A program made the translations under genes and the position numbers. Positions 38,285 through 61,686 of a stretch of 64,000 nucleotides of DNA are shown here, one piece after another. This DNA comes from Vibrio quintilis (GTDB taxonomy: Bacteria; Pseudomonadota; Gammaproteobacteria; Enterobacterales; Vibrionaceae): the NCBI RefSeq assembly GCF_024529975.1, contig NZ_AP024898.1, positions 1,302,001 to 1,366,000 of the forward strand. Reading direction: 5' to 3'. The first letter of the stretch is position 1; each line of letters begins with the position of its first letter. Below the pieces are notes generated by a model, which made no database searches, had not been told where the DNA came from, and worked only from the letters and a program-made list of their open reading frames with translations.

Positions 38285-38905
38285 GTGCGACATCATGAAT
38301 CCCAGCCATTACACCTGCCCTGTCTGATGACCACAGATCATCTGCTGCCTGTCGGCAAACGCAACATCCGGGGCAACGGGTTCATTTTTTCTCAAACCCT
38401 GCTCGATGCCATCAAACATCATGGCGTTTGGCTGGTGATGCAGGACAGTGACGGTCAGGCGGCCATTGCGCCGGGCGATATCGTGATACAGGCGAAAATT
38501 CTGGCCGTTGACTGGCTCTCTGCCGACCAAATCTGTGCCGAAATCTATACCCACCGCTGGGGCCGGATTGTCAGTGTCAGACAGGCCGCAGGATTCGGCT
38601 GGCTTTGCGCTCAGCCAGCGCCATTATGGAAAACACCACAACGCCTGTCCTCTGATGACATTTTAGTCACGCACTTCAGACAGTGGCTGCGTGAATCTTC
38701 CCGGCTTACCCCTTCTCCCTGGCTGTCAGAACAAACACCCCATATTACCGATCCCAATCAGCTTTGCTGGTACTGGCTGGAACTACTGCCACTGCCGCTT
38801 TCCACCAAACAACGTCTGCTCCGGCAGCCTGATTCGCAAGTCTGTCTGCGTTATCTGAAAAAAATTTTCCGTCATAGTGATCGATTCAGTCTCAACTTGC
38901 GTTAA
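38285..38905 (+). CDS. LON substrate-binding-domain protein
   Basis: About 206 residues from the GTG at 38285, which has GGAG nine bases upstream; the 56-residue extension runs through the promoter and is rejected. The N-terminal part (LPVGKRNIRGNGFIF, GDIVIQAKILAVDWL, VRQAAGFGWLCAQPAP) fits a stand-alone LON N-terminal domain, without the AAA or protease parts. Such proteins bind unfolded peptides. Its end overlaps the upstream frame of the sigma gene, suggesting one operon. Confidence 0.7.
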   Translation: MRHHESQPLHLPCLMTTDHLLPVGKRNIRGNGFIFSQTLLDAIKHHGVWLVMQDSDGQAAIAPGDIVIQAKILAVDWLSADQICAEIYTHRWGRIVSVRQAAGFGWLCAQPAPLWKTPQRLSSDDILVTHFRQWLRESSRLTPSPWLSEQTPHITDPNQLCWYWLELLPLPLSTKQRLLRQPDSQVCLRYLKKIFRHSDRFSLNLR

Positions 38906-38984
38906 ATCAGTATCGATCCCATGCTTGAAGTCAATCACAATGAAAACAAGTCAGTTCTCAACTCCGGAGAACACTAAGGAGCCC

Positions 38985-39554
38985 ATGATCGAGCAACCTT
39001 TGTCATGTCATGACGTGGCAACTTTGTTGTTTCGCATTGCAGAATCACGCTGCAAACGAAGCTATGAGCAATTATTTAAAATGATTGCGCCCATGTTACT
39101 GAACTACACCCGGCAACAACTTCATGACGAATCCCTGGCGATGGAAATTGTGCAGGAGACCATGCTCAAAGTCTGGCTCAAGGCGCATCTCTATGATGAG
39201 TCTAAAGGGGCAGCCACCACCTGGATCTACTCTGTCGCCCGGAATGTAAAATTCGATACATTACGCAAACTCAAACATCAGAATGACTGGGTTCAGGGCG
39301 ATGATCTGTGGCCGGTTCTTTGTGAAGAACCGGAGCCGGACCGGCTGCCTGCAGAATTTCATTCGATTGTCCGTCAGGAACTCAATAAAATTCTCGATGA
39401 ACTGCCGTCTTCCCAGTCAGAAGTGGTCAGAATGATTTGTTTACAGGGCGAATCCCATCAGGCTGTGGCACAAGCGCTGAATGTGCCGCTGGGAACCGTG
39501 AAAAGCCGGCTCAGACTGGCGCTACAGAAAATGAAGGAGGCACTGGATGACTAA
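38985..39554 (+). CDS. rpoE: ECF sigma factor, ECF11 (RpoE/ChrR) type
   Basis: About 189 residues from the ATG at 38985, preceded by AAGGAG; an in-frame ATG at 38940 is an alternative. Region 2 is YEQLFKMIAPMLLNYTRQQL, AMEIVQETMLKVWLKAHLYD and ATTWIYSVARN. Region 4 is LPSSQSEVVRMICLQGESHQ, AVAQALNVPLGTVKSRLRLA. It overlaps the ChrR gene by eight bases, the hallmark of this sigma/anti-sigma pair, which responds to singlet oxygen and related stress. Confidence 0.88.
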   Translation: MIEQPLSCHDVATLLFRIAESRCKRSYEQLFKMIAPMLLNYTRQQLHDESLAMEIVQETMLKVWLKAHLYDESKGAATTWIYSVARNVKFDTLRKLKHQNDWVQGDDLWPVLCEEPEPDRLPAEFHSIVRQELNKILDELPSSQSEVVRMICLQGESHQAVAQALNVPLGTVKSRLRLALQKMKEALDD

Positions 39555-40245
39555 GATTCACTACCATCCGACGGATGAAACGCTGGCTCGTTATGCAGCA
39601 GGAGACCTCGATCCGGCATCAGGTATTATGCTCAGTGCACACCTGGAATTTTGCAGCCACTGCCGCCAGAAAGTAGCGGCTTATGAAAAAGCACAGGCCG
39701 GTGAAATGATGCGGGCAAAACCGGAGCCGCTCAGCAGCGGGCTTCACGATATGCTTTCCCGGATACTTGAGCAAACTCCGGCGCAGGCCAGTGGGTTACC
39801 CTCTGCGGAGTGCGACACAACACCACCGGAAATGACGACCGAAATCTGTGTAAACAATAAGTCTTTCCGCCTGCCGCGGGCTTTAAGGCGTCATGAGGCC
39901 CATATTGGTCCGTGGAGCCGGCTGCCGGGAAATATCAAGCGGGCCAGCGTTTCGACCAGCGGTCAGAGCAAGATGAACTTCATCTATATGGATTGTGACA
40001 GCAGCCTGCCGCAACACACCCATCAGGGCCGGGAAATCACGCTGGTGCTGGCCGGAGAATTCAGTGATGAGCAGGCCACCTACCGGCCGGGAGATTTTGT
40101 TCTTCAGACTGACAACAACACACATTCGCCCAGAACCTCGGCTGATCAGGATTGCTTATGCCTGACCTTACTGGATGCACCGCTGCGTTTCACTTCCGGC
40201 CTTGCAACCTTATTAAATCCATTCAGCCCGCTGTTTTTCCGTTAA
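39547..40245 (+). CDS. chrR: ChrR-type zinc anti-sigma factor with cupin domain
   Basis: 232 residues. The N-terminal zinc anti-sigma domain has HPTDETLARYAAGDLD and the HLEFCSHCRQK motif (H-x3-C-x2-C). The C-terminal part (about 100-210) is a cupin with LPQHTHQGREITLVLAGEF and YRPGDFVLQ. It holds the sigma factor inactive until an oxidative signal releases it. A strong terminator follows. Confidence 0.9.
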   Translation: MTKIHYHPTDETLARYAAGDLDPASGIMLSAHLEFCSHCRQKVAAYEKAQAGEMMRAKPEPLSSGLHDMLSRILEQTPAQASGLPSAECDTTPPEMTTEICVNNKSFRLPRALRRHEAHIGPWSRLPGNIKRASVSTSGQSKMNFIYMDCDSSLPQHTHQGREITLVLAGEFSDEQATYRPGDFVLQTDNNTHSPRTSADQDCLCLTLLDAPLRFTSGLATLLNPFSPLFFR

Positions 40246-40321: not shown

Positions 40322-41941
40322 TCAGCGTTGCGTATGATTTTCCTCAGTCGCCAGTGCCTGAAGCTCATTGGCAAAACCCAGCCCGGCCACGTTATAGATA
40401 TTGAATGTATAATCAACGCCCAGTTCGCGGAGTTCATCTTCCTCATCATGGTACTTGGCGGTTGCTGCAATGCGCCCCTGGTAACCCATTTCTTTGAGAC
40501 GTAAAACTGAATTCACATTGGCCTGATGGTTTGGCATCGTCAGCAGTACCCACTCCAGATCATGATGCAGCTCAGGTGCTCTGATCCAAAAGTCCGGATT
40601 GGTCGCATCCCCGGCATAAATATTACATCCCTGCGAGGTCAGCTTTGCAGCCCTTTCCCTGTCCACTTCAATACCGGCAATATTATCAGGATAGCTGTTT
40701 TCCAGCGCATGATATGCGGCAATTCCCATTCTTCCCATGCCAAACACAACCGCCTTAATATGCGCCAGCTCCAGCTTTTTCTCAGATTCTAACCGGTACT
40801 TTCTCTCAAACCAGTTAAGCTTTGCCCGCCATCGCTCATAGATTTGATCCCGCACGCTGATCACCGGCGCAGAAATCATAAATGAGAGCGATAAAACCAC
40901 CGCAAGCACGGCCAGCCAGTCATGGGACAACCAACCCGATGACACCGCAATTGCCCCGACTATCAAACCAAATTCACTGTAATTTGCCAGGTTCAGCGAG
41001 GTCCGCCAGGCGGAGCTGGTCCGTAAACAGAACAAACTGAACAGACCGAAGTAAATCGCGACTTTGATCGGCAGGAACACGATAAACAGTAAAGCGATCA
41101 GAATTTCGGTGCTGCCCGGTGTGGCTGTCATACCCACGCTTAAAAAGAAGCCGACTAAGAACAGTTCCTTAAACCCAAGCAGTGCTTTAACCAGTTCACC
41201 GGATTTCGGATGATTCGCCAGCAACATACCAAATACAAGCGCACCGACATCTCCTTTGATGCCGACGACTTCAAACAGATCAGCCCCGACCAGTGCCACG
41301 GTAATACCAAAAAGAATCAGCAGTTCACCATGCCCGACCCTGTTGAGCACTTTAAACATGATCCATCTCACCGGGATCAGCGCCACAAGAGCCAGCGTCC
41401 AAATCGTCGGCAGTTTCCCCATAGACACCGCGATAAAAACCACCGCAGCAATATCCTGAACAACCAGCACACCAATCGCTGTCTGCCCGTGCAGGGCATT
41501 ATTCGTTCCGCTCTCATCAAGAATCCGGACAGCAAAAACTGTGCTGGAAAAAGACATGGCAAACCCGATGAGCAGTGCGGTTTCAACCGACAGGCCACCG
41601 ATCAGGGGAAGGGATGTATAAGAAAGGAGGACCACCAGTGCCGAAAACAGCGCGGTGACTATCATCATGTGCAGGGTCGCCGTTCCCCACACTTCCGGCC
41701 TTGCCAGAGATCTCAGTTTGAGTTTCAGTCCGATGGAAAACAGTAAAAGAGTAATCCCGAGATCAGCCAGAACGCCCAGAAAGCCGCCCTCTTTCACTCC
41801 AAGCGCATTGAGGGCAAAACCGGCAATCAAAAAACCCACAAGGGGCGGCAGCCCTGCCGTTTTCACACCAAGGCCACACATAAAAGCAATTGCGATCCAG
41901 AGCGGGTCGCCATAATGAATTGAAAGTAATTGCGGGTCCAT
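40322..41941 (-). CDS. CPA2-family monovalent cation/proton antiporter with TrkA-N domain
   Basis: 539 residues. About twelve membrane segments occupy residues 12-370, with the family motifs GITLLLFSIGLKLK, ETALLIGFAMSFSSTVFAV and the ion-site VVQDIAAVVF. Residues 395-525 form a TrkA-N/Rossmann domain (AVVFGMGRMGIAAYHALE). This layout is that of KefB/YbaL-like exchangers, gated by nucleotides or thiols. No kefF-like partner is adjacent. Confidence 0.88.
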   Translation of the reverse strand: MDPQLLSIHYGDPLWIAIAFMCGLGVKTAGLPPLVGFLIAGFALNALGVKEGGFLGVLADLGITLLLFSIGLKLKLRSLARPEVWGTATLHMMIVTALFSALVVLLSYTSLPLIGGLSVETALLIGFAMSFSSTVFAVRILDESGTNNALHGQTAIGVLVVQDIAAVVFIAVSMGKLPTIWTLALVALIPVRWIMFKVLNRVGHGELLILFGITVALVGADLFEVVGIKGDVGALVFGMLLANHPKSGELVKALLGFKELFLVGFFLSVGMTATPGSTEILIALLFIVFLPIKVAIYFGLFSLFCLRTSSAWRTSLNLANYSEFGLIVGAIAVSSGWLSHDWLAVLAVVLSLSFMISAPVISVRDQIYERWRAKLNWFERKYRLESEKKLELAHIKAVVFGMGRMGIAAYHALENSYPDNIAGIEVDRERAAKLTSQGCNIYAGDATNPDFWIRAPELHHDLEWVLLTMPNHQANVNSVLRLKEMGYQGRIAATAKYHDEEDELRELGVDYTFNIYNVAGLGFANELQALATEENHTQR

Positions 41942-42168
41942 AGCAGTCCTGAGAGTTATCCTCCGTGACGTTGATTCAGTCAGTAATTGTTTGGATATCT
42001 ATCAGTAAAGATAGATGATTTTCCCGTTTTTTTTACACTCTCTATTCCTTCCCGGCTGGTTTTTGCAAAGAAATTTGTGAATTTGCCTGCCGGGATCAAG
42101 TCCCGGGTTCAGGTCACGGTCCCGGACAGTCAGATAAACCCATGCTCAGAGAACGGCCGGTGCCAAAA

Positions 42169-43209
42169 TCAGCAACAGGCACCTTCATCCATATCCGCCT
42201 GCCCGGTCTCAAAAGGCATCACCGAACCGCATCCGGCAAACAATCCATAATGATGGCTGAAGTCACCAATAAAGGTAAAGTGTCCGGCAAATCGCGTCTC
42301 TCGCAACATACGCCAGGTATTACCACAAACAGGAAATACCTTTCCCGTCTCTATTTTGTGATGTTTATCGAGCTCAAAGAAGTGTGGGTGATGCGGCACA
42401 GTTCCCTGATAAATCACTGCCTGTCCGTAATCTTCGCAGGCGGTTTCCAGCCCGTCCAGATGAAACAGCCGGTAAGTGGCCGAATAAAACTGAATATTGC
42501 CGGTCCGGGCTGCCAGCTCCGGTGCCGTCACTTCCAGAGGGCGATCAGTCACCAGCCGCGGGTCGGTAAAACCGGCCGCGACAGCCAGACGCTGGAAGTC
42601 ATTCCAGTAAAGCGCCCCCCCAAGACATTCACCATAAATCACCGGATCACGACGCACATCATCAGGAACGCGGCGATCAGCATACACATCAGAGAAATAG
42701 AACTCTCCTCCCGGTTTGAGCAAATGTTTGACACCTTCCAGTACCGATGCCTTGTCCGGAGACAAATTCACAACACAATTAGATACAATGACATCAAAGG
42801 AGCCCGGTTCAAGGGGAAGATCTTTCAACTTTTCGATATACCCCCGGACAAAACGGACATTATCAAAACCAAACGCTTCGGCATGCCACTGCTGGTGAGA
42901 TTTGGCAACCGCCAGCTGCTCTTCAGTCATATCCACACCGACAACTTCACCTGTCGGTCCGGCCAGCTGAGCCAGCGCATAAACATCACGCCCGGAACCA
43001 CACCCCAGATCAAGCACCCGGCAGCCGGATAACTGGGACGGACAAACCAGCCCACAACCATAATAACGGGATAAAACCCCGGGATGGATATTGGAAAGCA
43101 ACGGCTTTAACCATTCCGGAACAGCACTGATATCGCAGCAAGCCGTTGTCTGTAAATCCGCTGAACTCTGTAACTGTTTTCCGTAGTAATCCTGAACAAT
43201 GTCATGCAT
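42169..43209 (-). CDS. arsM: ArsM-type arsenite S-adenosylmethionine methyltransferase
   Basis: About 346 residues from the ATG at 43209 (MHDIVQDYYG, GGAG upstream); the frame extension is rejected. The SAM site is VLDLGCGSGRDVYALAQLAG. The ArsM cysteine motifs YYGCGLVCP, VSNCVVNL and GECLGGALYW are present and correspond to the As(III)-binding cysteines. It methylates trivalent arsenic stepwise. It is the last gene of an operon led by arsS, so the product is probably a precursor for arsenosugar rather than only volatile arsenic. Confidence 0.85.
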   Translation of the reverse strand: MHDIVQDYYGKQLQSSADLQTTACCDISAVPEWLKPLLSNIHPGVLSRYYGCGLVCPSQLSGCRVLDLGCGSGRDVYALAQLAGPTGEVVGVDMTEEQLAVAKSHQQWHAEAFGFDNVRFVRGYIEKLKDLPLEPGSFDVIVSNCVVNLSPDKASVLEGVKHLLKPGGEFYFSDVYADRRVPDDVRRDPVIYGECLGGALYWNDFQRLAVAAGFTDPRLVTDRPLEVTAPELAARTGNIQFYSATYRLFHLDGLETACEDYGQAVIYQGTVPHHPHFFELDKHHKIETGKVFPVCGNTWRMLRETRFAGHFTFIGDFSHHYGLFAGCGSVMPFETGQADMDEGACC

Positions 43210-43247
43210 TGAAATTTCTCCATTGATGTTGATGTATCCTGCGGGTT

Positions 43248-43856
43248 TCACCGCCACCCAGCGGGTAGCCATTGCAAGTCGGCCGGTTCGTCGATATCGT
43301 GCAGTGGTGCCAGTATTTTCAGACTTCTTCCGGCGGCCTGAATACGTTGAATGGTGAGTTCAGCGACCTGACTGGTACTCCAGGGCATGTTATGGAACAC
43401 GGCTGGTAAATGATGTTTTAATCCGAGCAGCGCATAGCCACCATCACTGACCGGGACTAAGCAGGCATCATGATCGACCAGCGCCAGCGCTGCTTCACGT
43501 AGAACCGGAGCCGTTAAACCGGGACAATCCGTGCCCATTAACAGCACAGCTTCCTGCTGCCCGGTGACTCTTTGCGTCACGGCCGCAAGTCGCTCGCCCA
43601 AATCGCCCTCAGTCTGGGCAGACCAATGCACTCCGGACGGAATATTCACCGACGACCAGACCGGATGCGACACCGACGGCGAGACATACAACTCAACCGG
43701 CCCGGCACCGGCCGCCACCGCTTCAGCGACACTGTGTTCCAGTAACGCCTGCGCCAGCTGCGCTGCACCTTCTTCGCCCAGAGCCGGAGCAAGACGCGTC
43801 TTTGCCAGCCCCGGTAATGGGGCTTTCGCCACCAGTATGATTCGTACAGCGGTCAT
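43248..43856 (-). CDS. DUF2064/TIGR04282 rSAM-associated glycosyltransferase-type protein
   Basis: 202 residues. It has the N-terminal ILVAKAPLPGLAKTRLAPAL and LLMGTDCPGLTAPVL motifs of the DUF2064 nucleotidyltransferase-like GT-A fold, with DGGYALLGL later. The family regularly accompanies ArsS-type radical SAM genes and TIGR04283 glycosyltransferases. It overlaps the previous gene by four bases. Its reaction is not established; sugar or nucleotide transfer in arsenosugar assembly is inferred. Confidence 0.85.
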   Translation of the reverse strand: MTAVRIILVAKAPLPGLAKTRLAPALGEEGAAQLAQALLEHSVAEAVAAGAGPVELYVSPSVSHPVWSSVNIPSGVHWSAQTEGDLGERLAAVTQRVTGQQEAVLLMGTDCPGLTAPVLREAALALVDHDACLVPVSDGGYALLGLKHHLPAVFHNMPWSTSQVAELTIQRIQAAGRSLKILAPLHDIDEPADLQWLPAGWR

Positions 43857-44587
43857 CGGTACTCCTTCGCCAGCTGTTCAGCCGGAACGCCCTGCCAGTA
43901 GGCCCATCTCAGACGCCACATCAGCCAGATCGTCCGCCAGACGCCCCGTTCCTGCCAGCGACGCCCCGATGTGGTTGCCCGGACTTTCAGGCAGCAGGGC
44001 CGGCCAAAGCGAAGCAGGCGTTTCGACATTTCAATATCTTCCATCAACGGCTGCTCCGGAAATCCACCGGCGGCCCGGAATACATCCCGGTCAACGAACA
44101 TGGTCTGATCGCCGGTGGCAATCCCCGTCAGGCGGGAACGAAGGTTCATCAGCGCAGCCACAATACTCAACATCCGCGCTTGTCCCGTCAGGTGCACATC
44201 AAACCGACCCCACACCTGCCGTCTCAGCCCCTGAATTATCATTTGATCGGCCAGCGCCGGTAATCGGGTATCAGCATGGAGGAAAACCAGAATGTTTCCG
44301 CTGGCTATCGCCGCGCCGGTATTCATCTGTTTTGCCCTGCCCCGTTCACTGTGCAGCACCCGGAAACCGGCAGAGAGAGCCAGAGAAACGGAAGTGTCTT
44401 CGCTTCCGCCATCGACCAGTAACACCTCATGCCCATTCGCCTGCCAGACCTGCAGATGCGGGAGCAGATCCGGCAGCTGTTGCGCTTCATTCAACATTGG
44501 CACAATCAGCGATAATGCAGACCGGGTTCGTTTCCCGGCAGCCCTGTCGCTGCCTTGACTCTCTGTGATAAAGGTTTGTGTGTTCAT
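43853..44587 (-). CDS. TIGR04283-type family 2 glycosyltransferase
   Basis: About 244 residues from the ATG at 44587; upstream sequence in the open frame is repeat-rich and untranslated. The GT2 fold shows LSLIVPMLNEAQQLPDLL, VLLVDGGSEDTS (nucleotide site), AKQMNTGAA, FLHADTRLP (DxD-like) and LMEDIEMSKRL. It is soluble apart from a hydrophobic tail. With the DUF2064 partner it forms the pair usually found next to ArsS. Confidence 0.85.
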   Translation of the reverse strand: MNTQTFITESQGSDRAAGKRTRSALSLIVPMLNEAQQLPDLLPHLQVWQANGHEVLLVDGGSEDTSVSLALSAGFRVLHSERGRAKQMNTGAAIASGNILVFLHADTRLPALADQMIIQGLRRQVWGRFDVHLTGQARMLSIVAALMNLRSRLTGIATGDQTMFVDRDVFRAAGGFPEQPLMEDIEMSKRLLRFGRPCCLKVRATTSGRRWQERGVWRTIWLMWRLRWAYWQGVPAEQLAKEYR

Positions 44588-44597
44588 ACTATTTTCC

Positions 44598-44692
44598 CGT
44601 GCCTGTCCCTGCAAAAAGCGGCAAAAAAGCAGTGTCTGTCCCCATAAAAAGCGTCCCCATAAAAAGCGCCTGTCCCCACAAACACTGACTTG
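44598..44692. repeat. Short interspersed GTCCC-AAAAAGC motif cluster
   Basis: Variants of a 15-18 base unit occur four or five times here: GTCCCTGCAAAAAGCG, GTCCCCATAAAAAGC twice in tandem, and CTGTCCCCACAAACACTG. Related units are scattered at 47990-48330 on the other side of the cluster. They lie between two co-oriented genes. Confidence 0.7.
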
Positions 44693-44702
44693 TTTTGTCA
44701 AC

Positions 44703-46868
44703 TTACTGTTTTGCACAACCGCGCCGCCAGTAATGATACTTCTCCAGCCATGACAGAATTCGTTCCGGCGCATGGGCCCGTTTCCATTCCCCGGCAGCAT
44801 ATTTATTCGCTTCAGCCCAGGTCGGATAGGCGTGAATCGTGCCTAATATTTTATTCAGGCCGAGGCCATGCTTCATCGCCAGGACAAACTCTGCCATCAG
44901 GTCTCCGCCATGCTCCCCGACAATGGTGACACCGAGAATGCGGTCTTTTCCCGGCTCTGTCAGCACTTTCACAAACCCGTGTCGCTCGCTCTCTGCAATC
45001 GCACGGTCTAAATCATCCAGCCCGAACCGGGTGACTTCATAAGCGATGCCGGTTTCGCGGGCTTCCTGCTCATTGAGCCCGACCCGGGCAACTTCTGGCT
45101 CAACAAACGTGGTCCACGGGATCACCCGGTAATCGACTTTGAACTTTTTGAACTGACCAAACAGCGCATTCACCGCAGCATACCAGGCCTGATGTGCCGC
45201 AGTATGCGTAAACTGATAAGGCCCGGCCACATCACCGGCCGCAAAAATATTCGGGTACAGGGTTTCCAGATAATCATTGGTGACAATGGTTCGTTCAGTC
45301 TCTATTCCCAGTGTTTCGAGCCCGAATCCCTCCAGCCGTGCCACCCGGCCGACCGCACACAGTAATTCGTCAAACTCGATCGCTTTCTCTCCGTTTCCGG
45401 CACTGACGATCAGGCGTTTCGTTGCCCCGTTTTGTTCACAGCGCAGCGCCTGATGTCCGGTTAACATGGTGACGCCATCCGCTTCCAGCGATGCTGTCAC
45501 CAGTGCCGAAACCTCTTCATCTTCGCGGACCATAATGCGCGGCGCCATTTCAACCTGCGTGACCTGTGAACCGAGCCGGGCAAAGCTCTGTGCCAGTTCA
45601 CAACCGATCGGACCACCGCCCAGTACCACCAGCCGCTCCGGTGCCTGATCCCGTTCGGCAAATGCGTCCCATAAGGTATCACTGGTGACATACCCCACAT
45701 CATCAATGCCGGGTAGGGGCGGCACAAACGGGCGCGCCCCGGTTGCAAGGACAGTCGCCCGGCCCGTCAGCCGCTGAACTTCTCCGTCATGACGCTTAAT
45801 CTCAACCGTCCACGGATCAATCAGCCGGGCGTAACCTTCAATCACTTCCACGCCGAGTTTGGTATAACGTTCAATACTGTCATGCGGCTCAACCGCCCGG
45901 ATCACCTCATGCACCCGCGCCATCACCCGGCGAAAAGAGAAGACAGGTTCACCACTTTCCAGCCCGTAACGTTCCGCATGACGCATCTGTTGCGCCACTT
46001 TGGCACTTTTAATCAGCGCCTTACTCGGCACACAACCGTAATTCAGGCAATCGCCGCCCATTTTATGCGCTTCTACCAGCGTCACTTTCGCTTTCACAGC
46101 CGCAGCGATATAAGCAGTCACCAGCCCACCGGCACCCGCACCAATCACAATCAGATTGCGGTCAAAGTGTTTGGGTTTCGGATAGTTGGCATACACCCGG
46201 CGGGCATTGAGCATGGCCAGCACTTTCTTCGCCAGCAAAGGGAAAATACCCAGCAGAGCAAAAGAGAGCAACAACGCCGGAGACAGAATACCGGACAGGC
46301 TATCAAGCTGCGCCAGTTGCGTCCCGGCATTGACATATACAATCGTTCCGGCAAACATGCCTACCTGACTGACCCAGTAAAAAGTCACTGCCCGGATAGG
46401 TGTCAGCCCCATCAGCAGGTTGATCAGAAAGAAAGGAAAGACCGGCACCAAACGCAGGGTAAACAGATAAAATGCCCCATCTTTTTTAATCCCCTCATTC
46501 ATCGGTTTCAGACGGACACCAAAACGGCGCTGGACAACATCATGCAGCAGATAGCGGGATACCAGAAAAGCCAGCGTGGCACCGATCGTGCTGGCAAATG
46601 AAACAATGACTGTACCCCAGACCAGGCCAAATAACGCCCCGGCTGCCAGAGTCATCACAGCAGCGCCGGGTAAAGACAAAGCCGTGACCAACACATAAAT
46701 CAGCAGAAAAGTGCCGCCAACCAACACAGGCCGGGCCGCCCGCAATGACTCAAAGTCACTCAGGCCACTTTTCATTCCTTCCAGCGTTAACAGCTGATTG
46801 AGATCGAAGTAAAAAAATCCTGCAACCAGTGCAGCGATAACAACCAGTAGTAATCCTTTTTTCATCAC
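44703..46868 (-). CDS. DedA/TVP38-like membrane domain fused to a disulfide oxidoreductase
   Basis: 721 residues. The first 225 have five or six membrane segments in a TVP38/TMEM64 (SNARE-associated) fold. Residues 240-700 are a class I pyridine nucleotide-disulfide oxidoreductase: FAD motif LIVIGAGAGGLVTAYIA, redox pair GGDCLNYGCVPSKALI, NAD motif VVLGGGPIGCELAQ, and a C-terminal dimer domain with HAYPTWAEA. It lacks a mercuric-reductase C-terminal Cys pair. Position 45 bases after arsS suggests reduction of an oxidised arsenic or thiol intermediate, but that is inference. Confidence 0.85.
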   Translation of the reverse strand: MMKKGLLLVVIAALVAGFFYFDLNQLLTLEGMKSGLSDFESLRAARPVLVGGTFLLIYVLVTALSLPGAAVMTLAAGALFGLVWGTVIVSFASTIGATLAFLVSRYLLHDVVQRRFGVRLKPMNEGIKKDGAFYLFTLRLVPVFPFFLINLLMGLTPIRAVTFYWVSQVGMFAGTIVYVNAGTQLAQLDSLSGILSPALLLSFALLGIFPLLAKKVLAMLNARRVYANYPKPKHFDRNLIVIGAGAGGLVTAYIAAAVKAKVTLVEAHKMGGDCLNYGCVPSKALIKSAKVAQQMRHAERYGLESGEPVFSFRRVMARVHEVIRAVEPHDSIERYTKLGVEVIEGYARLIDPWTVEIKRHDGEVQRLTGRATVLATGARPFVPPLPGIDDVGYVTSDTLWDAFAERDQAPERLVVLGGGPIGCELAQSFARLGSQVTQVEMAPRIMVREDEEVSALVTASLEADGVTMLTGHQALRCEQNGATKRLIVSAGNGEKAIEFDELLCAVGRVARLEGFGLETLGIETERTIVTNDYLETLYPNIFAAGDVAGPYQFTHTAAHQAWYAAVNALFGQFKKFKVDYRVIPWTTFVEPEVARVGLNEQEARETGIAYEVTRFGLDDLDRAIAESERHGFVKVLTEPGKDRILGVTIVGEHGGDLMAEFVLAMKHGLGLNKILGTIHAYPTWAEANKYAAGEWKRAHAPERILSWLEKYHYWRRGCAKQ

Positions 46869-46913
46869 GCATCCCCGTGGGTCAAAGTTATTTTATCGGC
46901 CGGAAAATAAACA

Positions 46914-47870
46914 TTAATCAAGTGCACCGCCACAACTGCTGCCCTGCCCGGCCGTACAGCCAAAGCAGTGATCAGCCACGCAGACCTGATGACCATCGGG
47001 ATCAGTTTTGAGCAAATCCCGCAGATGAATACGGTGACGGCCGGACAGCGGTAAACCCAGCTGCTGATTGAAATCACAGTCATACAAATAACCCTGCCAG
47101 TCGACACTCACCAGTGAGCGACACATCAGACCCGCCAGATTCTCCTGTTGGTAGCTGTCCTTCAGCAGTTGCATGTAGTCATCGAACTGGCCTCTGGCGA
47201 CCAGAGAAGAGCCAAACCGCTTGATCGGCATATTGGTCAGGGCATAGAGCTGATTGAATTCAATATCGAAATGGTTGCGAAGCTCCCGCTTATAATCAGC
47301 TTCAAGGGCTTGTTGATTCGGCGGCAACACCGGCCCCTGCGGGTTATAAACCAGGTTCAGAATCAAACCACTGCCGGGTTTACCGTAACCCAGAGCATTG
47401 AGCTGCTTTAAACCGGCAATGCTTTTATCAAACACGCCTTTGCCCCGCTGTTTGTCCACATTTTCCAGTGAATAACACGGCAAAGAAGCAACAATTTCAA
47501 CCTGATGCTGCGCCAGAAACTCTGCCAGTCCTTCCTGTCCCGGTTCAAATAAAACCGTCAGATTACAACGGTCCATCACATGCACGCCTGCTGCTGTTGC
47601 TTCGCTGACCAGCTGCCGGAAACCGGGATGCAGCTCCGGCGCTCCCCCGGTTAAATCCAGCGTTTGGATCTGCCGGGCAGACAACACAGATAACACCAGC
47701 GCCATCGTTTCCTCTGTCATCATCTCGGTCCGGGTCGGACCGGCATTGACATGGCAATGGCGGCAACTCTGATTACATTTGTAACCCAGATTAACCTGCA
47801 GGGTCTCCAGAGGTTTTCGACGGATGGCTGGAAAATCGGTCACTTCCAGCAGGGGTAACATGGCTATCAT
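46914..47870 (-). CDS. arsS: Radical SAM arsenosugar-biosynthesis protein ArsS
   Basis: About 318 residues from the ATG at 47870, with GGAG six bases upstream. The radical SAM cluster is CNQSCRHCHV, and LDLTGGAPELHP follows as in the family. The C-terminal domain ends CFGCTAGQGSSCGGALD; in some homologues one of these cysteines is selenocysteine, and here it is Cys. ArsS transfers a 5'-deoxyadenosyl group to dimethylarsinous acid. It heads the operon with the glycosyltransferases and ArsM. Confidence 0.9.
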   Translation of the reverse strand: MIAMLPLLEVTDFPAIRRKPLETLQVNLGYKCNQSCRHCHVNAGPTRTEMMTEETMALVLSVLSARQIQTLDLTGGAPELHPGFRQLVSEATAAGVHVMDRCNLTVLFEPGQEGLAEFLAQHQVEIVASLPCYSLENVDKQRGKGVFDKSIAGLKQLNALGYGKPGSGLILNLVYNPQGPVLPPNQQALEADYKRELRNHFDIEFNQLYALTNMPIKRFGSSLVARGQFDDYMQLLKDSYQQENLAGLMCRSLVSVDWQGYLYDCDFNQQLGLPLSGRHRIHLRDLLKTDPDGHQVCVADHCFGCTAGQGSSCGGALD

Positions 47871-47989
47871 AAGGAACTCCGCTTTCAACACAAAATCAGT
47901 CAGTTTGTTGTTTTGGTCGCAGTAACGCCCATAATTCTTACAGCGAAACAGAAAATAAATTGCAGAAGTCAGTTTCAGCAAGATTGCCG

Positions 47990-48330
47990 TGCCTGTCCCT
48001 GGAAGATTCACCTGTCCTCACAAGCAACATCAGCGAAATGCAGTGCCTGTCCTCACAAAACCAGCTCACAGGAAGAGCCCCCTTTTGAGGCGTCTGTCCC
48101 CGTAAACGTCCCGTAAAATCCTTTCAGATCACCCGCTGTTCGTTTTCCGGCGAATCCCGGACAGGCGTCATGATGAAAAAACCGACGCTCTCACTTAGTG
48201 TGGTTCAAAATAGATATGTTGCCACTTTCATAGCAATAATGAGCCGCTGGTAAAGACGACTGTCCTCATAAGCATCATAAGCAGTCCTCATAAGCAAAGT
48301 GGTAAAAGTGCCTGTCCCCGTAAGCGCCCG
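47990..48330. repeat. Interspersed GTGCCTGTCC motif repeats in the arsS-phosphorylase gap
   Basis: At least seven variants occur: GTGCCTGTCCCTGGAAG, CCTGTCCTCACAAGC, GTGCCTGTCCTCACAAAAC, GTCTGTCCCCGTAAACG, CTGTCCTCATAAGC, CAGTCCTCATAAGC and GTGCCTGTCCCCGTAAGC. All point the same way. The 590-base gap between the divergent genes otherwise contains no coding frame. Regulatory meaning unknown. Confidence 0.7.
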
Positions 48331-48460
48331 AGCGCGAAAGTGCTTCATTGGCGCATATGAGTATCCACGCTTACACTCAAAGAAATATGCATTTCAACTG
48401 TAATGAAAAGCATTCCGGTGACGACTAACCTGATATCACAGGTACGGAGGACAAGATCTG

Positions 48461-49321
48461 ATGACACAAATAAAAATCGGCATTATTGGCGGCAGCGGGC
48501 TTTACCAGATGAACGGGCTGGAAAATGCTACAGAACAAGCCATAACAACCCCCTATGGTGACCCTTCAGATAAAATTTTAACCGGTACACTGGCAGGTGT
48601 TCCGGTTGCTTTTCTGGCCCGCCACGGCCGCGGGCACCGGCTACTGCCCGGAGAAGTGCCCTATCAGGCCAATATTCATGCCCTCAAGCAACTGGGAGTG
48701 AAATATCTGCTCTCTTTTTCAGCCGTAGGTTCATTGCAGGAAGAGATGGCACCACTGGATCTGGTGATTCCGGATCAATACATAGATTTAACGAAGAAAA
48801 GAACCAGTACATTCTTTGGTGACGGTGTTGTCGCCCATGTATCGATGGCTCAACCTGTGTGTCCGGATCTGGCTGAATTACTGGGTCAGGCGGTTGAAGT
48901 CGCGGCACCGGAAGCCAGATGTCATCACAAAGGGACTTATCTGTGTATGGAAGGCCCGCAGTTTTCCAGCCTTGCGGAATCCCGCTGGTATCGTTCGATG
49001 AATGCCAGTGTGATCGGGATGACCAATATGCCGGAAGCCAAACTGGCTCTGGAAGCACAGATGGCGTATGCATCGCTGGCGATGGTGACTGATTACGACT
49101 GCTGGCACCCGCGTGAGGCCAATGTCACCACAGACATTGCCATCGCCAATCTGATGAAAAATGCCGAACGGGCCCAAACCATTGCCGCAAAAGCAATTGC
49201 GCTGATAGAGGAACGCCAGCCGGAATCCGCTGCCCACTCGGCCCTGAAACATGCTCTGGTGACACCGTCAGATATGATGACGGCGGATAAGAAGCAACTG
49301 GTTGAGTTGCTGATGGCGTAA
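48461..49321 (+). CDS. MTA/purine nucleoside phosphorylase
   Basis: 286 residues with a GGAGGA ribosome site. Motifs GIIGGSGLYQM, LARHGRGHRL (phosphate), SFSAVGSL and MEGPQFSSLAESRWYR, then IGMTNMPEA and the TDYDCW base site, place it in the PNP/MTAP family 2. It is divergent from arsS. In arsenosugar clusters such an enzyme is thought to remove adenine from the deoxyadenosyl-arsenical. Ordinary methylthioadenosine salvage is the alternative. Confidence 0.88.
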   Translation: MTQIKIGIIGGSGLYQMNGLENATEQAITTPYGDPSDKILTGTLAGVPVAFLARHGRGHRLLPGEVPYQANIHALKQLGVKYLLSFSAVGSLQEEMAPLDLVIPDQYIDLTKKRTSTFFGDGVVAHVSMAQPVCPDLAELLGQAVEVAAPEARCHHKGTYLCMEGPQFSSLAESRWYRSMNASVIGMTNMPEAKLALEAQMAYASLAMVTDYDCWHPREANVTTDIAIANLMKNAERAQTIAAKAIALIEERQPESAAHSALKHALVTPSDMMTADKKQLVELLMA

Positions 49322-49374
49322 TTGACTCATGTTCTGATTTTGATAAAAAAATCATGAGGATGTACAAAGATAAT

Positions 49375-49405
49375 AACCCCGACAGCCATGACTGCCGGGG
49401 TTTTG
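49375..49405. terminator. Bidirectional Rho-independent terminator
   Basis: An 11-bp stem with one mismatch (49375-49385 with 49392-49402) closes a six-base loop and ends in TTTT. It lies between the convergent phosphorylase and TonB-receptor genes and can serve both. Confidence 0.85.
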
Positions 49406-49422
49406 TATGATATATCAGCCGG

Positions 49423-51477
49423 TCACATCCGGTAGGTCAGGTTCAGACCAAAGGTCCGGGTCTGCCCGACAGATGCTCTGGTGCTCTGCTTCATGTAGAT
49501 AATATCTTCATCGGTCAGGTTGGTCACATAACCGTCAATGGTCAAATCACCCATGATGTACCGGATTTGGGCATTCACGGTCACGTAATCATCCACTTTC
49601 AGGTCAGCTGTATTTTCCAGATCAGAGTAAGAACTTCCGACATACACAACATCACTGCCAAATGAGAAATTATCGGTGACATAGTGGGTAAACCCGGCAG
49701 AAAGATTGCTGTGTGGTGCATTCGGCAGTTCATTACCAGCCGTCGATACATCATCTTTATCCACTTTCGACCGCATCAGACCCACAGAACCATGCAGTTG
49801 CAGCGCACTGGTTGCCCACAGGCTGCCTTCCAGCTCAACGCCGTACGTGTGTGAGTCTTCAATGTTATCGATATACGCCGACTGTACAAATGCCTGATAG
49901 CCGGAGTAATCGTTATAGAACAGGCTGGTTGTCAGCTCCGCATCGTCAAAGCTGGTTTTCAGCCCGGCTTCATAAGCAATCACGGTTTCCTGATCGTAGG
50001 TATAGTACGCGAACGTATCCCAGTTAACCGAAGCACTACCGGCATTATAGCCTTTGCGGACCGACGCACTGAGCACCATATCGTCATTCAGGTCATAAAC
50101 AATCCCGGCTTTCGGCAGGAAAATATCCTTACTGGTATCCTGCGCATAATCATCATCCCGCCATGAAAAATCGAGTGAACGCTTAATTTTTTCATTCTCA
50201 AACCGCATTCCGCCGATCAGTTTCAGATCAGAACGAACGGCGTAAGTACCTTCACTGTACAGCGCCGACGTAGTGATTTCATTCGGGCCACCAAATGCTG
50301 TGCCAACCTGCAGGTTCGTTTTTTCTTTGGACCAGAAAAGCCCTGTCACACCGGAGAAAGCGGAATCATCAGACTGAAACAACAACCGGTTTTCAAACAC
50401 CATATGATCTTTATCGGAAGTCACCACCATGCTGTTCGGATACTGTTCAAACTCAACATCAGTGACCAGATAACTAAAGTGGAATGCATTGGTCAGCCCT
50501 GAGGTCAGAGCATAATCAATATCCGCAGCAACTGACTCAACATCAGAGTCCTGCAAACGGATATTTTTCCGGCCGGCCTGACTGAGCGTCATGGTATGGG
50601 ACGTATATCCGGTTTCGCTGTCATTAGCCCAATTGAGATATTCGCCTTCATAAACCTGACGGGTCAGCATCAGTTTTGCTTTCAGCTCCGGTAATGCCGC
50701 TGGTTCCCAGAGAAATTTCATCCGGGCATTGACGTTTTTGGCATCATCCACATCCGGCCCGTTATCCAATTCGGAACCTGCCTGCTTATAATTCATCCAG
50801 CCTTCGCCTTTACGGCCATCCAGTGCCAGACGAAATGCCAGTTCATCATCAATCAGTGGTCCGGAAACCATCACGGCCACATTATTCCTGACGTTATCGT
50901 TTTTGTAGCGCTCCATCCCCAGACGAACCGCACTTTCCCACATATACGTTGGCTCATTGGTGGATAAAACCAGCGCGCCACCAATCGCATTCGTTCCCTG
51001 AGTCGTTGACTGCGGGCCACGCAACACTTCGACCTGTTTTACATCCCATAATTTGCTTGGCGTAAAACTATAGCCGGACCATGACTGTGTCACGCCATCA
51101 ACAATGGTTGAAATCCGGGCCCGTGAACCACTGTAAAATGCGTAACCACCCAGTGCGGCGCCCGTTCCGCTGATACCACGGATACTGATCGCGCCAAAGC
51201 CACCACTGACCACATTCGGGATACGGGTTGCCAGATCATTCGCACTGGTCTCACGGCCATTTTCAAACTGATCGGCAGTAATTACGGAAACAGCCGAAGA
51301 GGTATCGTTAATATTCTTGGTGATTTTTTCTCCAACCACGGTAACCACCGGCTGTTCCATGTCAGCAGGAGATTCAGCCAGCGCCACTGCCGGTGCCAAT
51401 GTTCCTGCATGCCCTAAAATGACAGCAATACGCCAGTTCAGATATTTTCTTCTTGTCGAAGGTTTGACAGGGTTCAT
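49423..51477 (-). CDS. TonB-dependent siderophore receptor 1
   Basis: 684 residues with AAGGA before the ATG. A signal peptide ends near ALAES, a TonB box-like PVVTVVGE follows, then a plug domain (VEVLRGPQSTTQGTNAIGGA) and a 22-strand barrel ending in the expected aromatic-rich LNLTYRM. It resembles the second receptor at 56099 along the plug (LWDVKQ-EV--GPQS), so the two are paralogues. A Fur box lies 80 bases upstream. Confidence 0.9.
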   Translation of the reverse strand: MNPVKPSTRRKYLNWRIAVILGHAGTLAPAVALAESPADMEQPVVTVVGEKITKNINDTSSAVSVITADQFENGRETSANDLATRIPNVVSGGFGAISIRGISGTGAALGGYAFYSGSRARISTIVDGVTQSWSGYSFTPSKLWDVKQVEVLRGPQSTTQGTNAIGGALVLSTNEPTYMWESAVRLGMERYKNDNVRNNVAVMVSGPLIDDELAFRLALDGRKGEGWMNYKQAGSELDNGPDVDDAKNVNARMKFLWEPAALPELKAKLMLTRQVYEGEYLNWANDSETGYTSHTMTLSQAGRKNIRLQDSDVESVAADIDYALTSGLTNAFHFSYLVTDVEFEQYPNSMVVTSDKDHMVFENRLLFQSDDSAFSGVTGLFWSKEKTNLQVGTAFGGPNEITTSALYSEGTYAVRSDLKLIGGMRFENEKIKRSLDFSWRDDDYAQDTSKDIFLPKAGIVYDLNDDMVLSASVRKGYNAGSASVNWDTFAYYTYDQETVIAYEAGLKTSFDDAELTTSLFYNDYSGYQAFVQSAYIDNIEDSHTYGVELEGSLWATSALQLHGSVGLMRSKVDKDDVSTAGNELPNAPHSNLSAGFTHYVTDNFSFGSDVVYVGSSYSDLENTADLKVDDYVTVNAQIRYIMGDLTIDGYVTNLTDEDIIYMKQSTRASVGQTRTFGLNLTYRM

Positions 51478-51556
51478 CCTATATCCTTTAAAACGTTAAA
51501 TGTTCAGAACAGACTCCATCACATTCCAGGTGTAATTTATTATTTTGAATAAAAAT

Positions 51557-51575
51557 TATAATAATTATCATTTTT
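51557..51575. promoter_or_regulatory. Fur box upstream of receptor 1
   Basis: On the minus strand AAAAATGATAATTATTATA matches 15 of 19 positions of the Fur consensus. It lies 80 bases before the receptor start, in an AT-rich promoter region. Confidence 0.75.
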
Positions 51576-51677
51576 AATTATAATTTTAACTATACTACCA
51601 CAGTTAATCCTGAAATTATCAATAAAAACAAACCGGGAAATCCATACGGGGAAAATCAAAGTGAAGGAGAGACAGTA

Positions 51678-51702
51678 ATGATCTGAGCCAGAGTCAGATC
51701 AT
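51678..51702. terminator. Possible terminator hairpin
   Basis: A perfect 9-bp stem (ATGATCTGA with TCAGATCAT) around seven bases, 65 bases past the stop of the ABC ATPase gene. No T tract follows on the minus strand, so termination may be weak or Rho-assisted. Confidence 0.4.
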
Positions 51703-51766
51703 ACTGCCCGGAAGAAAAAACAGAGGAGAAACACAAATTATTGTGCAGGAACGTACAGACAGCCAT

Positions 51767-52579
51767 TCAGCTGCCTTTCGGAATCACCATCGGCGTCCCA
51801 CTGACCGGATCATCAATAATCAGACTGTTCAGGCCGAAAACCTGCCGGATTAAATCCTCTGTCACCAGAGCTGCCGGTTCACCGTGAGCAATCACCTCGC
51901 CGCCTTTCACCGCAATTAAATGGTCAGCATAGCGGCAGGCATGATTCAGGTCATGCAACACCGCGATCACCGTATGACCAGATTCCCGGTTCAGCTGACG
52001 AAACAGATCCAGCAAATCTATCTGATGAGCGATATCGAGATAAGTCGTTGGCTCATCCAGCAAAATTACCGGCGTTTGCTGCGCCAGTACCATCGCAATC
52101 CAGACCCGCTGACGCTGCCCGCCGGAGAGCTGATCGACCATTTGATGAGCCAGTTCAGTCACACCGGTGACCGCCATCGCACGGGCAACGGCCTGTTCAT
52201 CGTCTTCAGTCCACTGACGAAACGTGTTCTGATGCGGATAACGCCCTCTGGCAACCAGATCAGCGACTTTGATTCCTTCCGGCACAAGGGCACTCTGGGG
52301 CAGCAGCCCCAGTGTTTTTGCCACATCACGGGTCGGCCGGGTATGAATATCTTTACCGTCAAGAAAAACCGTGCCGGCTTTCGGTTTCAGCAGACGACAC
52401 AGGCTTTTCAGCAAAGTCGATTTTCCGCAACCATTGGGGCCGACAATCACGGTAAATTTTCCGTCCGGAATATCAATTGTCAGATCCCGGCAGACCTCGT
52501 GTCCTTCATACCCCAGGGTTAAACGCTGACCACGCAGACGCGACGGTTGCTCATCCATCATGCTCTCTGTGACTGCCAC
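51767..52579 (-). CDS. Ferric-siderophore ABC transporter ATPase (FepC type)
   Basis: 270 residues, starting at a GTG with AGGAG eight bases upstream, or at the ATGs seven or eight codons on. Walker A is VGPNGCGKST, signature LSGGQRQRVWIAM, Walker B VILLDEPTTYLD, and the H-loop is VLHDLNHACRYAD. It powers the FepD/FepG-type permeases encoded 6-8 kb away on the same strand. It follows the NRPS gene by 15 bases. Confidence 0.93.
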   Translation of the reverse strand: MAVTESMMDEQPSRLRGQRLTLGYEGHEVCRDLTIDIPDGKFTVIVGPNGCGKSTLLKSLCRLLKPKAGTVFLDGKDIHTRPTRDVAKTLGLLPQSALVPEGIKVADLVARGRYPHQNTFRQWTEDDEQAVARAMAVTGVTELAHQMVDQLSGGQRQRVWIAMVLAQQTPVILLDEPTTYLDIAHQIDLLDLFRQLNRESGHTVIAVLHDLNHACRYADHLIAVKGGEVIAHGEPAALVTEDLIRQVFGLNSLIIDDPVSGTPMVIPKGS

Positions 52580-52594
52580 ATAATTCTCCTGTTG

Positions 52595-55500
52595 TTAATG
52601 ATAATCAGACAACAGCAATTCGGGCTGTTGCCGGAGTGATGATAAAGGCACTTCGGTACAAGAAGGCTCAGCAAACACATTGAGGATCTGATGTGTTGTC
52701 TGTCGCAACAGAGCTACCTGTGCCGGACTATAGTGCCGCGACAGATAACTCATCAGCACCCGGATCTGCGGTTCGTCATTGACGGTCTCTTCCATCACTT
52801 CAAATTGCAACCCAAGCGCGGCTTCATGCTTTTCCGGGTCAACCTGACTGAATTTAACCCGGTAACCTTCAGCAGAAACCAGACTGCCATGCAGTTTATT
52901 CTTGGCGTGCAACTGAATCATCACCTCAAACATATGTCCCGGCTGGTTCTCTTTTTCTTCGCCAAACAGCGCTGATTCCATCACATCCACCGGAATATCG
53001 GTATACGGCATAGAGTCATTGATGGTCTGTTTCACCTGTTGAATCAGCTCACTGACAGACAATTGCTCATCGAGCAAAACCCGGTGAACAGCAATCGTGG
53101 TGAAATAACCCACGGTATCAAAAAATGCTGCATCCATCCGGCCGGAAACCGGCGTGCCGACGACCATATCTTTGGGACCGCCCAGCAGATGCAGTGACGT
53201 GACGATAGCGGCGTACACCACATTAAACAGAGAAGCATCACTGGCTCTTGCCAGCCGGTACAAACCATCTGAGACCTCAGGCGCAAGATGAAATTCCACC
53301 CAGCCGCCGGCACCGTCTGCACTTTGATCCGCAGGTTGATGCAACGGTTGGTCCTCACCGTGGTCGTCACCGTGGACGTCGTCATGAACATCGCTGTGGT
53401 CATGACCCTGATCATGACCAAATATGGGCTTTGCCCATTGAGCGCCCTGCAGATGTTGCAGCCAGAATTCCAGATGCTGCGGATCAACGCCACTGGCTGC
53501 CTGTTGCTGTGCAAAAGTGTGGAAAGGTAACGGCGCTGAACGCCAGACAGGCGACTGTCCACCGGTACGGGCCAGATAAGCCTGACCAAGCTCATCCATC
53601 ATCAGATTCACCGACCACTCATCCAAAACCAGATGATGAAACAGCATCGACAGATATAACTCGCCGGATTCACTGTCACGGATAAACCGAAGCCGCAGCG
53701 GCAGCTCATACGCCAGATCAAAACCATAAACAGCTTCCCGGTTCAGCGCATCACGGAAAGGTTCCGAAGCCGTCGTTTCACTCAGCCAGCACCATGAATA
53801 GTTATCCAGTTCACTCACCGGCACGATCCGCTGCTCCGGTCCGTCACTGCCCGCTGCAAAATGCGTCCGCAACCCGCTGTGACGAATCAGTAGATCACGG
53901 AATGCCTGAAACAGTGCGGGTTCATCTACGCCGTCCGGGAAATGCAGGGTAAACGGAATATTAAACACATGATTGAGCCCCATCGCAGCAAATTTTTGCA
54001 CCACGGTCCACATCGCGTTTTGCGCATGAGACAGCGGAAACGGGCCGGTTTGGTCCTGATTCAGAGCAAAGTGTTGTGCCTGTCCTGATTGAACCTGCCC
54101 TGCCTGTTCTGGTTCTGACTGATCTGAAGTCATACCTGCAGCAGGGTTTTCTCCGTGTACCACAGCATGTTCAGCCAGTGACTGAGCGGTAGAGTAACGG
54201 AACAGATCATTCATCCGGATTTCAATCTGATGCGTGTTGAGCAACTGGCCGATAATCCGGGTTGCAATCAGCGAGTGTCCGCCCATGTCAAAGAAATCAT
54301 CCTGTGCGGTCATATCCGGCACACCCAGCGCTTCGCGGAATGCCCCGAGAATAATCGTCACCGGCACAGCGGAGGACGATAAAGACGGTTCCTGCACCAC
54401 AGTAAGTTCAGAGATGTCGGTGGAGCCCTTCGTTACAGAAGCACTCGTTACAGGAACATGCGTTACAGGAGCTCTCGTTACAGGGAAATTGGCCTGGGAA
54501 AGCGGGTTAAACGGGGCAACAGCGTCTTCCCGGCATAAAGTGCCAGGCATATCGCACTGATCTTTATCCGCTGGTTGTTTGTTGTTGATTGTTGCTGCCA
54601 GTTGTTCCAGCAACCAGCCACCGGCATAAGCAGACACCTGATCTGACGTCGTTAACATCAGCACATCTTCGCCCTGCGGATTCAGTGCCATCGCGAATGT
54701 CAGTTCAAACGGCACCTGTAACGCAGGCAGCCATACACGCTGAGCCTGCAATCCGGCAAATCCGGCCGCGGGATCAGACAGAGCAACCAGCAGCGCCTGA
54801 GGCAGGTTCTTTTCAACAGCATCGTGCTCAACAATATGATGTTCAACATTCCCCGCTTCAGCGAAACCAGCTGAGGACTGCATTTGCTGCTGTGCCTGAT
54901 GGAACAGTGATTCAGGATCGGTACAGTCCAGCGTCAGGATTTTCAGCCCTTCCTGAGACAGGCAGCCATGCAGAGCATCCGTGCAGGGCACGGCTTCTGC
55001 AGGGATGCATACCCGGACTACCGGCTGACCGGACACCGCAGCCAGCTGTCTGGCAACGAATGTTGCCAGCACTGTCAGGACAGTCACTGATATTTGGGGC
55101 TCAGCAGCACTGCGGGAAGCAGAACCTGAAGAAATGAAAGCCTGCCCGGCCGGTGGTAATAAGCCAGCCAGAGGTTTCAGGTGCAGCGCGACGGAAAACT
55201 GCGTGGCGGTGTTTCGCTGGCTGGCATAATTCAGACAGCCGTAACTGGCACTTTGTTCGCTGAAAGGAAGCCCGGAGCGGACTTCACAATGCAGATCACG
55301 CCGGAGTCCCGGTATTCCTGCGGTCACGATCTCATCCGGGAACATCAGTGACTGCGAATTCAGCTGACAGGTCGCGCCGGAGCACGCCACAGGCTGTTCA
55401 CGATCGGTCTGTCCATCATAAAGCGACGCAACCATGCTGAACACAGTATCCGGACTGATTTTTGAACTCAGTATCTGATGCATGACACATCCCAGAATCA

Positions 55501-56026: not shown

Positions 56027-56098
56027 AATAATATTCCTGTGTGACCACCCATCGTTCACAGCCGTTACCGGCGCTAAACGCCGGTAACGGAATCAAAG

Positions 56099-58162: not shown

Positions 58163-58315
58163 CTGAGATACTCCTGTAAGACACACCCGGTCACGTTCGT
58201 CTGAGCTTCCCGGCTGTCAGAATCTGGATAGTAAGAGGTTGAAATTGCTGTCAAACAGATCCTTCCCGGGTCAACCAGCAATTCAGGAGCTACTCTATGA
58301 AAACCAATTGAGAAT

Positions 58316-58334
58316 GTAAAGAATTATCATTTGT
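58316..58334. promoter_or_regulatory. Fur-like box upstream of receptor 2
   Basis: On the minus strand ACAAATGATAATTCTTTAC matches about 12 of 19 Fur consensus positions, with the core AATGATAAT intact. It lies 155 bases before the receptor start, in the gap after the permease gene. Confidence 0.55.
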
Positions 58335-58362
58335 GTTTAATAAATTTATTAAATCGTATGCA

Positions 58363-60461: not shown

Positions 60462-60471
60462 ACCCGTCAGT

Positions 60472-61410: not shown

Positions 61411-61413
61411 AAT

Positions 61414-61432
61414 GATATTGATTCTCATTACC
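61414..61432. promoter_or_regulatory. Fur box of the uptake operon
   Basis: GATATTGATTCTCATTACC matches 15 of 19 Fur consensus positions. It ends four bases before the FepB-type start, so iron-loaded Fur would block both transcription and initiation. Confidence 0.75.
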
Positions 61433-61532
61433 GTTAATGTTTATTATTCACCCTGTTGAGCCATCAGTGGTGAAGAACATCGTGTGTCACTCTCAAAAAC
61501 AGATGATTGTTATCATGAATGTCCACATAAAG

Positions 61533-61551
61533 GCAAATGATAATTGTTTTT
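61533..61551. promoter_or_regulatory. Fur box of the VibH-like gene
   Basis: GCAAATGATAATTGTTTTT matches 13 of 19 Fur consensus positions. It lies 135 bases before the VibH-like start and about 120 bases from the FepB-side box, so one divergent region serves both. Confidence 0.6.
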
Positions 61552-61686
61552 ATTCACAAATGACATCAAAAAATTCAACACCTTAACCATGACTTCGGAT
61601 CTGTATCCGAATCACCCGGTCAATCGTTGCAGGCCGGACAAATGCAACGGTATGAAAAGTCAGACCAGAAACAGAAAAGGATGCTT

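Follow-up and report, generated by a model that had tools for sequence, protein, structure and literature searches.

In the genome of Vibrio quintilis, a cluster of six genes is predicted to encode a pathway that leads from arsenite to an arsenosugar via phosphorolysis, nucleotide charging, and glycosyl transfer, a reading that we consider on balance probable. The cluster spans positions 42169-49321 of the 64,000-nucleotide stretch analysed in this study (positions 1,302,001 to 1,366,000 of contig NZ_AP024898.1; hereafter, the window). As judged from the sequence, the gene cluster is real and conserved, and it is probably functional. It is already annotated in outline in the public NCBI annotation, including the arsenosugar link of the TIGR04282 and TIGR04283 proteins; what is new here is the reading of the TIGR04282 protein as a nucleotidyltransferase, the recurrent link with a 5'-methylthioadenosine phosphorylase (MTAP), and the rarity of the cluster in the genus. 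The features are as follows (ORF, open reading frame).

42169..43209, minus strand: arsM, arsenite methyltransferase (~346 amino acids; listed ORF reaches 43272)
43248..43856, minus strand: TIGR04282/DUF2064 protein, predicted nucleotidyltransferase (202 amino acids)
43853..44590, minus strand: TIGR04283 glycosyltransferase family 2 protein (~245 amino acids; listed ORF reaches 44800)
44703..46868, minus strand: fusion of a DedA/VTT membrane domain and an FAD disulphide oxidoreductase (720-721 amino acids; Pfam VTT_dom and Pyr_redox_2)
46914..47870, minus strand: arsS, radical SAM arsenosugar enzyme (~318 amino acids; listed ORF reaches 48011; TIGR04167, CxxxCxxC)
47871..48460, no strand: intergenic region between arsS and the MTAP gene (a 17-nt dispersed repeat occurs here four times)
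48461..49321, plus strand: MTAP, divergent (286 amino acids)

All six genes lie at the coordinates given in the original prediction. On the minus strand, the order is arsS, DedA/FAD-oxidoreductase fusion, TIGR04283, TIGR04282, and arsM, with the MTAP gene divergent. The gaps are 48 bp between arsS and the fusion gene, 112 bp between the fusion gene and TIGR04283, and 38 bp between TIGR04282 and arsM, and the TIGR04283 and TIGR04282 genes overlap by 4 bp. Several of the listed ORFs start too early: the start of arsS was trimmed to about 47870 by comparison with homologues and with ArsS of Vibrio aerogenes, and those of TIGR04283 (about 44590) and arsM (about 43209) were set by our own choice of start codon.

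The proposal that ArsM and ArsS provide the entry into arsenosugar chemistry is supported by the family scores and by the conserved radical-SAM and ArsM cysteines. The ArsS protein matches TIGR04167 with 477.5 bits (NCBIfam cut-off, 300), and the cysteines of its CxxxCxxC motif (C32, C36, and C39), together with the C-terminal C305 and C313, are kept in all 81 rows of the alignment (here as elsewhere, alignments omit pieces with stops or short spans). The best NCBIfam match of ArsM is the arsenite methyltransferase PRK11873 (163.9, under the cut-off of 263), and its closest solved structure is 5evj, also an arsenite methyltransferase (335.4 bits). Cysteines 24, 25, 52, 145, and 195, which we take to be the catalytic set, are kept in 21 of 21 rows, rows L097 and L121 having been left out of this alignment. 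ArsM falls outside the NCBI arsenosugar ArsM family, NF038099 (89.4 bits, under the cut-off of 400). In Synechocystis sp. PCC 6803, ArsM and a TIGR04167-family radical SAM enzyme, ArsS, catalyse the initial steps of arsenosugar synthesis according to the accessible text of PMC8552651, and arsenic adenosylation is attributed to a radical SAM enzyme in that of PMC12159101; within the accessible text of these two papers, only the first arsenosugar steps are assigned, and that of PMC12608789 and PMC6302742 holds nothing on ArsS. The window differs from the Synechocystis pathway as published in that genes for a phosphorylase, a glycosyltransferase, a membrane oxidoreductase, and a nucleotidyltransferase-like protein accompany arsM and arsS.

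The first two steps of the pathway are proposed because they have been published for the Synechocystis enzymes: ArsM would methylate arsenic, and ArsS would join the methylated arsenic to the 5'-carbon of adenosine, giving 5'-deoxy-5'-dimethylarsinoyl-adenosine. The MTAP-type phosphorylase would then probably exchange adenine for phosphate to yield arsenoribose-1-phosphate, the TIGR04282 protein would probably charge this compound with a nucleotide to form a nucleotide sugar, and the TIGR04283 protein would probably transfer the arsenoribose to a glycerol- or lipid-type acceptor, producing a beta-riboside. Unlike hydrolysis by MTA/SAH nucleosidase, phosphorolysis would keep the anomeric carbon activated. 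In stereochemical terms, the beta-nucleoside would be converted to an alpha-1-phosphate by phosphorolysis, then to an alpha nucleotide sugar, and finally to a beta-riboside by an inverting family 2 glycosyltransferase; the two inversions would therefore restore the beta configuration given for natural arsenosugars in the accessible literature, and the stereochemistry thus fits the model. It is quite possible, though less likely than not, that the cluster makes NDP-5-deoxy-5-dimethylarsinoyl-ribose (NDP, nucleoside diphosphate) as a donor for arsenic glycosides or glycolipids, by a nucleotide-sugar route that was previously read as two glycosyltransferases. A parallel is found in the fluorinase and FlB route (accessible text of PMC8694150), in which a 5'-substituted 5'-deoxyadenosine formed from S-adenosylmethionine likewise undergoes phosphorolysis; the pathway of the window differs in its radical chemistry, in the use of arsenic instead of fluoride, and in the predicted nucleotide charging after the sugar-1-phosphate.

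The genes of the cluster recur together in other bacteria. In the 80 ArsS loci examined (selected as the top 80 among no fewer than 584 ArsS relatives, some loci ending at contig ends), neighbours counted by score thresholds included DedA in 63, the oxidoreductase in 54, TIGR04283 in 58, TIGR04282 in 55, MTAP (within 10 kb) in 22, and ArsM in 21. When only the 47 loci that extend 6 kb or more upstream and 8 kb or more downstream are counted, the numbers become 41, 38, 38, 38, 17, and 14 in the same order. The companionship of DedA, TIGR04283, and TIGR04282 with ArsS is more than chance. The gene order recurs across beta- and gammaproteobacteria, and the locus of Caldimonas manganoxidans (L083) shows nearly the arrangement of the window, with a divergent MTAP gene, a sigma-factor gene, and an ORF followed by arsS, fusion, TIGR04283, TIGR04282, and arsM. 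DUF3047 and DUF547 (one member of each tested) were found in 22 and 14 of the 80 loci, respectively, and neither has a relative in the window; the description of the cluster as complete is thus not supported.

The MTAP of the window scores 313.7 against TIGR01694 (NCBIfam cut-off, 274.85) and matches the structure of RsfP (4glf) with 389.2 bits. Residues R54, H55, F168, S169, D211, and D213, which presumably form the phosphate and 6-aminopurine (adenine) sites, are invariant in an alignment of 23 ArsS-linked MTAPs. Assignment as a PNP or MTI phosphorylase was rejected (PRK09136, 203, under 223; PRK08202, 70.8, under 218). Among the 22 MTAP genes neighbouring arsS, nine lie on the same strand 39-114 bp upstream and one on the same strand 60 bp downstream; 11 lie on the opposite strand upstream at 0.2-6.6 kb, and one on the opposite strand downstream. 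Seven of these loci belong to Microbulbifer and the remainder to nine other named genera and five further lineages. The linkage of ArsS and MTAP is repeated, not general. The recurrent ArsS neighbourhood and the intact MTAP residues lend support to the earlier placement of a phosphorylase step after ArsS. No link between arsenosugars and a phosphorylase was found by title in the literature searched, which left out most subscription papers; only human PNP as an arsenate reductase turned up in its accessible part.

The TIGR04283 protein exceeds its NCBIfam cut-off (278.6 versus 182), and H105, D107, E184, D185, R210, and W212 are invariant in 58 rows. Its predicted model (predicted local distance difference test score, pLDDT, 91.0) matches GT-A glycosyltransferases, with the acidic motif present. 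The TIGR04282 protein likewise exceeds its cut-off (195 versus 134), with K11, K19, R21, D110, D187, and D189 invariant in 56 rows. Both proteins thus fall into the families that NCBIfam names for arsenosugar biosynthesis. NCBIfam names TIGR04282 a glycosyltransferase, whereas the fold and motifs found here point to a nucleotidyltransferase: the nearest folds to the predicted model (pLDDT 96.5) are of the CofC/FbiD type, the guanylyltransferases of F420 synthesis, with which the protein shares the invariant acidic residues. It differs from them in scoring 49.5 against the CofC family TIGR03552, under the cut-off of 105, and is thus placed outside that family. Of the 50 fold matches listed, none is titled a glycosyltransferase except 3cgx ('putative nucleotide-diphospho-sugar transferase'). 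The protein therefore looks like a nucleotidyltransferase, as far as a predicted structure and motifs can indicate, and the original prediction of two glycosyltransferases was not borne out. In the accessible text of PMC8801600, TIGR04282 is already labelled 'fbiD'.

Several observations weigh against the proposed pathway. All six gene types occur together in only 3 of the 80 loci (L065, L083, and L094), and MTAP and ArsM are both present in four. The MTAP family, which usually serves methionine salvage, is widespread: 5947 of 8000 candidates reach 1e-80. In favour of a link, 170 of 369 class genomes have both the ArsS and MTAP families, 13 ArsS only, 90 MTAP only, and 96 neither; the resulting Fisher odds ratio of 13.9 ignores kinship, and the MTAP threshold used also lets in MTI-type phosphorylases. 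Against such a link, among the matches listed for 86 comparable class genomes (second ArsS copies left out), this genome alone has an MTAP gene within 10 kb of arsS, the next-closest distances being 17 and 32 kb. MTAP may serve salvage only, acting on methylthioadenosine or on 5'-deoxyadenosine, a possible by-product of ArsS, while the arsenosugar is made by another route in which TIGR04283 uses an ordinary donor. This explanation, which we consider rather unlikely, agrees with the ordinary MTAP score of the window protein, with residues that are those of MTAPs generally, with the distance of most class-sample MTAPs from ArsS, and with the presence of the family in 90 of the 186 class genomes lacking ArsS. 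It is countered by the ordinary MTA/SAH nucleosidase (317.8 bits) that the genome also encodes, because of which MTAP would be unneeded for clearing methylthioadenosine, by the absence of the family from the 117 other genomes of the genus sampled, and by its recurrence beside ArsS in 22 of the 80 near relatives.

A further point against nucleotide charging of the sugar is that CofC-type enzymes, by the names of the matched structures, act on phospho-acids and not on sugar-1-phosphates. The nearest characterised folds are 2-phospholactate, phosphoenolpyruvate, and 3-phosphoglycerate guanylyltransferases, and the TIGR04282 protein might instead activate the acceptor, with a phospho-acid (3-phosphoglycerate, for example) receiving the nucleotide to supply a glycerol-type aglycone; we regard this as unlikely. 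The distribution of ArsM also bears on the arsenosugar pathway. ArsS was found in 183 of the 369 class genomes; 91 of them lack any ArsM-like match at 1e-20, and a long ArsM is missing from 158, figures that are upper bounds, since the search scored just five ArsM candidates in most genomes. ArsS in such genomes is supplied either by a different methyltransferase or by dimethylarsenic from the environment; the alternative is that ArsS often has a different substrate. ArsS, TIGR04283, and TIGR04282 could, in the latter case, form a general module whose usual substrate is not arsenic, its use of arsenic being a side line. Such a module would be in keeping with the finding of a long ArsM in only 25 and any ArsM-like match in 92 of the 183 ArsS genomes, and with NF038099 in 3 of the 369. 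However, ArsM may escape the search or be replaced by another methyltransferase, the cluster in the window does contain ArsM, and the published ArsS acts on methylated arsenic (accessible text of PMC12159101 and PMC8552651); we judge a non-arsenic module to be quite improbable.

In the proposed arsenosugar pathway, the DedA/oxidoreductase fusion is the weakest part, its role as a membrane-bound reductase that maintains the reduced state of arsenic or thiols being a guess. The protein matches the VTT/DedA domain with 78.9 bits and the pyridine-nucleotide-disulphide oxidoreductase domain (Pyr_redox_2) with 205.5 bits, and its redox cysteines, C273 and C278, are kept in all 48 rows of an alignment from which rows under 650 amino acids were left out. 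In Gallionella-type and related loci (L104, L105, L112, L122, L139, and L141), a lone DedA gene without the oxidoreductase half lies between arsS and TIGR04283, and in Microbulbifer loci the two halves are often separate genes.

The same genome has a second arsenic system, an arsR-arsH-acr3-arsC operon (L155 3185-5774; ArsH, 398.1 versus 292.25; Acr3, 422.4 versus 282.8), which lies on chromosome 1, unlinked to the arsenosugar cluster; elsewhere in the genome, another gene of the arsC family exceeds its cut-off. With the genome's own ArsR, ArsH, Acr3, and ArsC as queries (ArsB was not among them), no match better than E 0.46 was obtained in the window, and the cluster does not have the make-up of an ars export operon, namely arsR, an arsenite exporter, and arsC. 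The absence of arsR, arsB, and arsC noted earlier is thus true of the window, within the limits of this test, and not of the genome, and the view that the organism metabolizes arsenic rather than exporting it was not confirmed. The arsenosugar cluster supplements export and does not replace it.

In the genus survey, this genome alone carried an ArsS scoring above the cut-off (1 of 90 genomes), an MTAP (1 of 118), and an ArsM (1 of 118). V. aerogenes CECT 7868 encodes close relatives of MTAP (85%) and ArsS (89% over 201 residues). In phylogenetic trees, the ArsM of the window groups with L065, L066, and L077 (95/87), and its MTAP with L065, L095, L107, and L118 (99/97) in a tree of ArsS-linked rows only; those of these partners that have a name are marine gammaproteobacteria. 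For ArsS, the closest rows are L065 and L066, in a weak placement (80/19) from a tree whose bootstrap had not settled. The cluster was probably acquired from outside the genus, from other marine bacteria. The Kef-type antiporter flanking it has a 71-75% relative in five genus genomes; no empty insertion site was found, these relatives having no other cluster-flanking gene alongside.

A 17-nt element like GTGCCTGTCCCCRTAAG is present in nine copies in the window at three or fewer mismatches, versus 0.25 expected. Plus-strand copies start at 44599, 44632, 44666, 47989, 48043, 48090, and 48308, and minus-strand copies at 23819 and 26232; seven of the nine lie inside the cluster's two large gaps, three between the fusion gene and TIGR04283 and four between arsS and the MTAP gene. 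Its 12-nt core is also present in L001 (same genome) and L160 (a relative). An Rfam search of the window gave no match, and one promoter-like site was found in 41900-49450, versus 5.6 expected. At 38877-40245 lie genes for a sigma factor of the sigma-70 type and for an anti-sigma factor of the ChrR type, the latter matching TIGR02451 (190.4 versus 124.5); sigma factors adjoin ArsS in 20 of the 80 loci, and that of the window is just 24% identical to those. A siderophore region at 49423-63036, encoding two TonB receptors, an ABC ATPase, two Fe-siderophore permeases, an enterobactin-type binding protein, and an MxcG-like protein, adjoins the cluster.

In seaweeds and marine food chains, organic arsenic occurs mainly as arsenosugars. 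If the proposed pathway is true, the steps that lead from the adenosyl-arsenical to the sugar, beyond the two already known, would fall to three named proteins. The occurrence of ArsS in half of the class genomes sampled (183 of 369) suggests that arsenosugar chemistry may be much more widespread than is now recognised.

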